Source of the DNA: Candidatus Heteroclostridium caecigallinarum
GTDB taxonomy: Bacteria; Bacillota; Clostridia; Christensenellales; CAG-314
NCBI GenBank assembly: GCA_904419725.1
Contig: CAJFSP010000001.1
Coordinates: forward strand, 1-64,000
Direction: 5' to 3'
DNA length: 64,000 bases
The notes beneath the pieces were generated by a model. The model saw only the letters and a program-made list of their open reading frames with translations. It had not been told where the DNA came from and ran no database searches. Shown in pieces: positions 46,733 to 64,000 of this stretch. The translations under genes and the position numbers were made by a program. How positions within the stretch are numbered: the first letter of the stretch is position 1; each line of letters begins with the position of its first letter.

Positions 46733-46774
46733 ACATATTTATTCGCAAAACTATTCTTTTGCGAATAAATATGT
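46733..46774. repeat. 18-bp perfect inverted repeat with 6-bp centre, dif-like site
   Basis: ACATATTTATTCGCAAAA (46733-46750), CTATTC, then TTTTGCGAATAAATATGT (46757-46774). The two arms are exactly complementary. The layout of two recombinase arms around a 6-bp centre is that of a dif site, and the core AAAACTAT-N2-TTTT resembles what I recall of streptococcal difSL. It stands between a Xer gene and an unrelated metalloprotease gene. No T-run follows on either strand, so a terminator is less likely. Confidence 0.6.
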
Positions 46775-62003: not shown

Positions 62004-63325
62004 TATTTGGCGTCCCCCTTCAAATCATAATCGGAAAAACCTTTGACAACGATTTCGGTAAATTGCCCCGCTTCCAAAGGCTTGTCCGAACTTACATAAA
62101 CACATCCGTCGATATCGGGCGCGTTATACTGACTCCGCGCCTTATAGAGAAATTTATTTTCAGCGGAGGATATTTCCTCGTCAATTATAACGCGAAGTTT
62201 TTTGCCTTGCATGGCAGCGTTTTGTTCGCGGACGATATCATATTGCAAAGCGGCAAGGTTTGAAAGCCTTTGTTCTTTTACTTTTTCGGGAATCTGGTTT
62301 TTCATTCTTGCGGCCGCGGTTCCGTCCTCCCGCGAATATGTAAAAAAGCCTACGTTATTCATGCGCTGTGTCTTCACAAAATCGCAAAGACCGTTAAAGT
62401 CCTCCTGTGTTTCTCCCGGAAACCCAAGAATAAACGTGGTTCTCAAAGAAATATCCGGTACTTTTGACCTCAATGCGAAAAACAGTTTTTCAAGGCTTTC
62501 GCGGGTGGATTTGCGACCCATGCGTTTCAGAACGGCGTCCTGACTGTGCTGAAGCGGAATATCGAGATACTTTGCGACTTTGTCGTTTGAAGCTATTTCG
62601 TCGATAAGTTCGCCGTCAATCAACTCCGGATAGCAATAAAGCAACCGTATCCAGACAAGACCATCAATTTTAGACAATTCCCTTATCAATCCGACCAAAC
62701 ACGTCTTACCATACAAATCAAACCCGTATTTCGTCAAATCCTGGGCAATAAGTATCAGTTCTTTCGCGCCCGCGGCGACAAGGTCTTTCGCCTCTTCGAC
62801 AATATGTTCAATAGTTCTTGAGCGGTATTTTCCCCTTATCGACGGAATCAGACAATATGTGCAAAAATTATCGCAACCATCGGCCACGCGCAGATAAGCG
62901 TAATGCCCCGGAGTCGTCACAATGCGCCGCCCTTCCTCAATGCGCGATGTGTTAGGCGACACTTTATAGCAACGCTTGTCCAGACCACGGATAAAAGAAA
63001 CGACGTCGGCGTAATCGTTAGTGCCCAAAAAGCCGTCCACTTCGGTAAATTCGTCAAACATCTCTGAAATGAAACGCTGCGGCAAACAACCGGTCATTAT
63101 AAGTTTTTTGCATTTTCCGTGTTTATACCGAGCCATTTCCAGCGTTGTTTCAATGGCTTCCTGACGCGCAGACTCCAAAAAAGCGCAGGTATTCACAATG
63201 ATAATCTCCGCTTCTGACGGGTCGTTAGTTATCTCGAACCCGCCCCTGCGCAGATTATAAAGCATTATTTCGGAATCAACCCTGTTTTTGTCGCAGCCAA
63301 GCGACACTACTCCAACTTTAGCCAT
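62003..63325 (-). CDS. rimO: Ribosomal protein uS12 methylthiotransferase RimO
   Basis: Radical-SAM methylthiotransferase that modifies an Asp of ribosomal protein S12. The N-terminal UPF0004 cysteines are in SLGCDKN, NTCAFLE and TGCLPQR. The radical SAM motif is CDNFCTYCLIPSIRGKYRSR. A TRAM domain ends the protein at 440 residues. It is a paralogue of MiaB, also in this window. The ATG overlaps the stop of the ftsK gene. Confidence 0.96.
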   Translation of the reverse strand: MAKVGVVSLGCDKNRVDSEIMLYNLRRGGFEITNDPSEAEIIIVNTCAFLESARQEAIETTLEMARYKHGKCKKLIMTGCLPQRFISEMFDEFTEVDGFLGTNDYADVVSFIRGLDKRCYKVSPNTSRIEEGRRIVTTPGHYAYLRVADGCDNFCTYCLIPSIRGKYRSRTIEHIVEEAKDLVAAGAKELILIAQDLTKYGFDLYGKTCLVGLIRELSKIDGLVWIRLLYCYPELIDGELIDEIASNDKVAKYLDIPLQHSQDAVLKRMGRKSTRESLEKLFFALRSKVPDISLRTTFILGFPGETQEDFNGLCDFVKTQRMNNVGFFTYSREDGTAAARMKNQIPEKVKEQRLSNLAALQYDIVREQNAAMQGKKLRVIIDEEISSAENKFLYKARSQYNAPDIDGCVYVSSDKPLEAGQFTEIVVKGFSDYDLKGDAK

Positions 63326-64000
63326 CAGTTTCCAAACAATTGATTGTATTCTTCTTCCGTAATCAGTACCTGACGAGGTTTTGCCCCCTCAAACGGCGAA
63401 ACAAAATGTTTCTCTTCCATATCCTGGATAAGCCTGCCCGCCCTGTTGTATCCTATGCTGAAACGCCTTTGCAGCATTGAAATAGACGCCATCCCCGTTT
63501 CTATGACATATTTCAGCGCGTCATAGAACAAATCGTCCAAATCGTCGTCATCACTGCCGCCGCCGGCAGCATTGCCTTTTTTGGCATTAAAAATCGCGTT
63601 TTTGACGTCTTCATCAAAATAACTTTCATTGTTGGCGGCAATAAAATTGACAACTTCCCTGACTTCATCGTCAAGCACCAACGCGCCTTGCAGCCTTATC
63701 GGTTCTGGCATATTGCCGGCCTGGAAAAGCATATCGCCTTTCGCGATAAGTTTTTCAGGTCCGCCCTGTTGCATTATCGTACGCGCGTCCGCCGCGCTGG
63801 TAACTCTCAGCGCTATACGCGCAGGGAAGTTTGCCTTGATTACACCGGTTATAACGTCAACGCTAGGTCTTTGCGTCGCGAGCACGAGATGTATTCCCGC
63901 CGCGCGGGCCTTTTGGGCAAGTTTTTGGATTCTCTGCTCAATCTCGCTTTTGTTGTATTGCATAAGGTCGGCGACCTCATCAACAACCATGACAATTCTA
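63325..64000 (-). CDS. DNA translocase FtsK/SpoIIIE, C-terminal part (cut by window end)
   Basis: Only the last 220 or so residues are inside the window; the frame runs on past its edge. Visible are Walker B (VMVVDEVADLM), the RecA-like segment LVLATQRPSVDVITGVIKANFP, an acidic linker (GGGSDDDDLDDLF) and the C-terminal gamma domain (SISMLQRRFSIGYNRAGRLIQDME), which binds DNA polarity sequences and, in FtsK, activates Xer recombination at dif. In this species it could be the septal or the sporulation translocase. It lies 17 kb from the dif-like site. Confidence 0.93.
   Translation of the reverse strand, partial: RIVMVVDEVADLMQYNKSEIEQRIQKLAQKARAAGIHLVLATQRPSVDVITGVIKANFPARIALRVTSAADARTIMQQGGPEKLIAKGDMLFQAGNMPEPIRLQGALVLDDEVREVVNFIAANNESYFDEDVKNAIFNAKKGNAAGGGSDDDDLDDLFYDALKYVIETGMASISMLQRRFSIGYNRAGRLIQDMEEKHFVSPFEGAKPRQVLITEEEYNQLFGN

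Follow-up and report, generated by a model that had tools for sequence, protein, structure and literature searches.

Introduction

The resolution of chromosome dimers is among the core steps of the cell cycle. Recombinases such as XerH, XerS and the Cre-like enzymes bind each site as a dimer, bring two sites into a tetrameric synapse, cleave through a tyrosine and swap strands, passing through a Holliday junction that is then resolved. XerS/difSL is the system of Streptococcus and Lactococcus (Le Bourgeois 2007; reviewed in PMC5357621), and XerS has been treated for streptococci and lactococci (PMC5357621, PMC2731167, PMC3025954). XerH has been described for epsilonproteobacteria and XerL for Legionellales (PMC9765430), and these were the only single-recombinase bacterial systems found described. 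A survey of dif sites was confined to strains with XerCD orthologues (PMC3025954).

The window analyzed here, a stretch of 64,000 nucleotides, carries a palindrome at 46733-46774 that is very probably (about 0.93, judged from sequence) the dif site of the chromosome, served by one Xer recombinase whose gene begins 115 bp from it. The initial annotation had taken it for the dimer resolution site of a single Xer outside the streptococci, a proposal strongly supported by conservation, single copy, linkage, terminus position and the lack of an XerC/XerD pair. The protein and the site together are a variant of the single-recombinase Xer/dif arrangement, widespread in Clostridia, at which recombination is presumed to take place. 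The features are as follows.

46733-46750, no strand: left arm of the putative dif site, ACATATTTATTCGCAAAA, perfect inverted repeat; its inner 9 bp, TTCGCAAAA, are conserved across the order
46751-46756, no strand: central (putative overlap) region CTATTC, 6 bp, asymmetric, varying between relatives
46757-46774, no strand: right arm of the putative dif site, TTTTGCGAATAAATATGT, perfect inverted repeat; inner 9 bp conserved
46742-46765, no strand: 24-bp conserved core TTCGCAAAA-N6-TTTTGCGAA, single copy in its own genome
45520-46617, minus strand: xer, single tyrosine recombinase of 365 aa, Phage_integrase family, with R207, K231, H302, R305, H328 and Y338
63325-63999, minus strand: 3' part of ftsK, gene running off the window; gamma domain at 63358-63543 (PF09397 95.2 bits, PF01580 41.9 bits)

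Comparison With Described Xer Systems

The locus resembles XerS/difSL in its one recombinase (about 356 aa in XerS), in a site adjoining the gene of that single Xer and in an AAAA-N6-TTTT core. The arms of difSL are imperfect and unequal (TTTCCGAAAA / TTTTCTTGAAA, PMC5357621), whereas those in the window are near-identical TATTCGCAAAA arms, symmetric around TTCGCAAAA. A match of AAAACTAT-N2-TTTT to difSL had been noted earlier, and it holds in part: AAAA-N6-TTTT is truly common to the window site, difSL and difH, but the CTAT portion is coincidental, since it sits in the 6-bp centre, which varies among relatives. Beside true XerS loci (L264-L266), no symmetric AAA-N-TTT repeat was found within 1.5 kb.

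With XerH/difH of Helicobacter and Campylobacter, the locus shares a single recombinase of similar size and inverted repeats around a variable hexanucleotide, and difH is likewise usually gene-linked and near the GC-skew peak (PMC2731167). However, difH has TTTGAAAA-type arms (PMC2731167), unlike the window site, and XerH lies far away in the tree and has its tyrosine at His+9. The XerL/dif system of Legionellales also uses a single recombinase and long, uninterrupted, symmetric arms of 10-12 bp (PMC9765430); compared by its description alone, it differs in belonging to another lineage and in that xerL lies more than 400 kb from dif in L. pneumophila (PMC9765430). The 6-bp centre, the terminus position and the presence of FtsK-gamma are found in XerCD/dif of E. 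coli and Bacillus as well, but that system employs two recombinases and arms that are only partly symmetric, while the family of the window shows no XerD over the cut-off.

Classification of the Recombinase

The initial annotation credited the recombinase with all catalytic residues; the six listed above are in place and are invariant among aligned relatives. Its further assignment to the XerS type could not be upheld. XerS (NF003462) is the top NCBIfam match of the window protein, but at 188 bits against a cut-off of 267; the best of 20 relatives reached E 2.4e-63, whereas loci over the cut-off scored 382-385 bits (E ~1e-114). In the tree, the clostridial proteins (31 rows) form one clade (SH-aLRT 99) and XerS (4 rows) a separate one (98), the two being held in a larger group with a support of 90; XerH is distant on a long branch. 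The phylogenetic comparison with XerS that had been suggested thus places the window clade beside XerS and outside it. The tree contained the clostridial clade, XerS, XerH, XerC, XerD and the 300-aa Xer proteins of the phylum, was obtained by a short search and left out phage integrases. Among the reference sequences, S. pneumoniae XerS and E. coli XerC scored 559.7 and 370.3 bits with their curated models, H. pylori XerH was confirmed against PDB 5jjv, and E. coli XerD was the stretch from PDB 1a0p. An AlphaFold model of the Xer, built with 10 sequences, was too weak for use (mean pLDDT 68, catalytic C-terminus below 50).

The spacing of the active site gives the same division. The catalytic tyrosine lies at His+10 (HKDVNTTRKHY, residues 328-338 in the window protein) in 69 of 69 clade members, and at His+9 in XerS (3 loci checked), XerC/D-type proteins, XerH and a related 340-aa group. 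A diverged but true member of XerS/difSL is the competing classification within the dif reading; its best NCBIfam match and its adjoining position in the tree speak for it, yet we consider it unlikely in view of the sub-threshold score, the well-supported separate clade, the His+10 tyrosine and arms unlike those of difSL. Somewhat less doubtful, though still tentative, is the idea of an undescribed, separate class of single-recombinase dimer resolution, which would have displaced XerCD across much of Clostridia as a distinct clade co-evolving with its own symmetric dif. Such a class possibly came from outside Xer proper, given that its tyrosine has the spacing of phage-type integrases, two of which, in the own genome, likewise have it at His+10.

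A canonical XerCD system was considered and rejected. The window Xer scores 156 bits with the XerC model (TIGR02224), where 335 are needed. The earlier suggestion to look for a pair of ~300-aa XerC/XerD proteins was followed in the family: in a scan with the XerD model alone, none of its 41 genomes has an XerD over the TIGR02225 cut-off, and so none has a pair over both cut-offs. PF00589 has five matches in the own genome, the window Xer among them; the others belong to two full phage-type integrases (L002, L003) and to a split integrase. This genome is 94.6% complete in 19 contigs, which leaves some room for a pair inside a gap. In 11 genomes of the sister genus g3, an extra XerD-like recombinase of ~300 aa occurs (L108-L118; 197-229 bits, below the cut-off), and the five of these proteins placed in the tree form their own clade.

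Architecture and Conservation of the Site

The arms at 46733-46750 and 46757-46774 are complementary at all 18 positions and enclose the 6-nt centre, which bears out the perfect repeat 115 bp upstream of a 365-residue recombinase that had been annotated at these coordinates. It is the sole perfect repeat in the 64-kb window with arms of at least 18 and spacers of 3-10, about 8e-6 being expected by composition. Two inverted half-sites thus surround a centre within the 6-8 bp typical of dif (18-6-18 in the window, with a conserved 9-6-9 core). From 79 distinct sites, the arm consensus is approximately ACTATTCGYAAAA and the whole site approximately ACTATTCGYAAAA-N6-TTTTRCGAATAGT.

The bases flanking the core vary among species, yet match between both arms of each site. 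Across the 79 distinct sites, the two arms agree at position -4 in 89% (51% when shuffled), at -3 in 95% (76%) and at -1 in 94% (71%), a contrast inflated to some degree by the relatedness of the genomes. This covariation across the dyad is what selection for one protein binding both arms would give. The centre occurs in 11 forms in 27 family genomes, for instance CTATTC, GGCAGC and CACAAG; none is palindromic, and the first and last bases are almost always G or C. Fixed arms around a centre that keeps its length but is asymmetric and changes in sequence are the hallmark of a tyrosine-recombinase overlap region.

Even at 3 mismatches, the own assembly of 1.28 Mb contains a single copy of the 24-bp core, so the further copies that would have spoken against the initial annotation are absent. 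Of the 41 genomes in the GTDB family, 27 match TTCGCAAAA-N6-TTTTGCGAA at all 18 fixed bases, once each, where ~1e-4 per genome is expected. Over the order, 207 of 297 genomes match TTCGYAAAA-N6-TTTTRCGAA within 1 mismatch, generally in one copy, while the reversed pattern used as a control matches in 18 genomes of the same set. The roughly 30% of order genomes with no match within 1 mismatch are partly explained by variant arms (e.g. TTCGTTAAA) and contig breaks; in G032, a member of the family, xer is present and no site is recognizable. In Lachnospiraceae, Frisingicoccus caecimuris carries TTCGGAAAA-GCTGTG-TTTAGCGAA 890 bp upstream of xer, and TTCGNNAAA-type sites lie upstream of xer, within the flank examined, in 11 of 29 further loci. 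Conserved copies upstream of orthologues, proposed earlier as a check, are consequently present in the family, the order and Lachnospiraceae.

Relatives nearly always have one copy per chromosome; the exceptions are G074 and a few other genomes, whose additional copies are mostly weaker. Besides the xer-adjacent site, G074 contains dif-like sites at L295:9493, L297:9528 and L294:10681, located on 85-kb and 125-kb contigs and adjoining a terminase gene in a prophage-like stretch. The L294 site looks like a bidirectional terminator as well.

Position at the Replication Terminus

In six of six genomes, the site and the maximum of the cumulative GC skew are 0.1-6.4 kb apart (G000 3.6, G003 3.6, G010 6.4, G016 0.3, G033 0.1 and G020 0.5 kb), with the qualification that some of the six stretches were chosen centred on the site and that the own contig was masked over 66 kb at one end. 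In two complete genomes the site is bracketed by the switch: G070 has a skew of +0.125 at 2,210 kb and -0.189 at 2,340 kb around its site at 2,271 kb, and G092 has +0.158 at 700 kb and -0.115 at 830 kb around its site at 772 kb. Sampled around the circle, both have the other skew switch roughly opposite the site. The palindrome is thus found where a dif site belongs, at the replication terminus.

In the window, the sequence coding for FtsK-gamma is 16.6 kb away from the site; the domain was found in seven of seven genomes tested. The distance from ftsK to dif is 12-17 kb in G000, G003 and G016, and three complete genomes belonging to a different family have 41-57 kb, which indicates that ftsK stays near the terminus. 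Around the site in the same six genomes as above, some octamers strongly favour the strand directed towards it, for example GGAAAAGG (87:10) and TTGACGAA (157:39); these are possible FtsK-orienting motifs (KOPS), a bias confounded by gene orientation.

Linkage to xer and Other Functions of the Palindrome

Among the 48 tabulated genomes in which both coordinates are known, the site is upstream of xer on the same contig in all 48, at 25-7,747 bp (median 193). In G024 the two are on separate contigs, the site being 264 bp from a contig end. The xer of this clade is present in all 27 family genomes with a perfect site, and the seven family genomes in which xer has no strong match all lack such a site; owing to the linkage, a single assembly gap can remove both, so this joint absence is partly explainable. 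Matches to xer occur in 275 of 297 order genomes, including 240 of the 247 good ones.

A palindrome so close to a gene could instead be an operator through which the xer promoter is controlled by a bound regulator, possibly the recombinase, and a degenerate copy near the xer promoter region in a sister-genus subgroup agrees with this. As the only function, however, it was rejected on account of the separation from xer, which exceeds 1 kb in 10 of the 48 genomes and reaches 7.7 kb, and of the tracking of the GC-skew maximum; with a centre of fixed length and varying sequence also against it, we regard the operator as very improbable. Still less probable is that the palindrome is no more than the attachment site of a mobile element whose integrase is the recombinase. 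Element integrases often adjoin their att site, and the His+10 tyrosine is shared with the phage-type integrases of the genome, but xer is nearly universal in the good genomes of the order and has the site next to it, at the terminus, the flanks encode ordinary chromosomal proteins (HflX, LexA, YgjP and PadR) and no element boundaries were seen here. An intrinsic terminator or RNA hairpin is scarcely credible, because the terminator-like call of a scan is on the plus strand and faces no gene, the two adjacent genes are read from the minus strand, on which CAAAAAGCC, with no U-run, comes after the hairpin, and neither inner 9 bases fixed across many families nor a single copy is expected of a terminator.

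Proposed Mechanism and Significance

For the dif site of a single Xer, a mechanism and a role in dimer resolution can be proposed by analogy with XerH, XerS and the Cre-like enzymes. One Xer would bind both near-identical half-sites with their TATTCGCAAAA-type arms, and in a chromosome dimer the two sister dif sites would be brought together in a tetrameric synapse. Y338 would then attack at the presumed cleavage positions, the borders between arm and centre, and exchange of strands across the 6-bp centre would turn the dimer into two monomers. FtsK probably gathers the terminus at the septum and may activate the recombinase; with arms so nearly symmetric, the asymmetric centre and FtsK would set the order of strand exchange.

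The system spans one order of Clostridia, with more than 30 families, and Lachnospiraceae. A full-text search of open-licence literature returned nothing on such a site in Clostridia and no paper on XerS together with Lachnospiraceae, an earlier description elsewhere being possible. The consensus ACTATTCGYAAAA-N6-TTTTRCGAATAGT lets the terminus be placed in draft genomes and marks where FtsK should act. Moreover, the natural variants of arm and centre provide a series for studying the order of strand exchange by one recombinase on a nearly symmetric site.

A subgroup of the sister genus g3 has, besides the perfect site, a degenerate one, TTCGYAAAATATTTGCTTTRCGAA, which is the nearer of the two to xer, at ~75-310 bp upstream (degenerate sites at L157:1404, L165:1394, L166:1167, L167:1380, L174:2654 and L175:453). 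The degenerate site has a conserved centre and one changed inner base, and may be a relic dif or an autoregulatory site. In L166 it stands directly before a TTGTATAAT-like -10 box.
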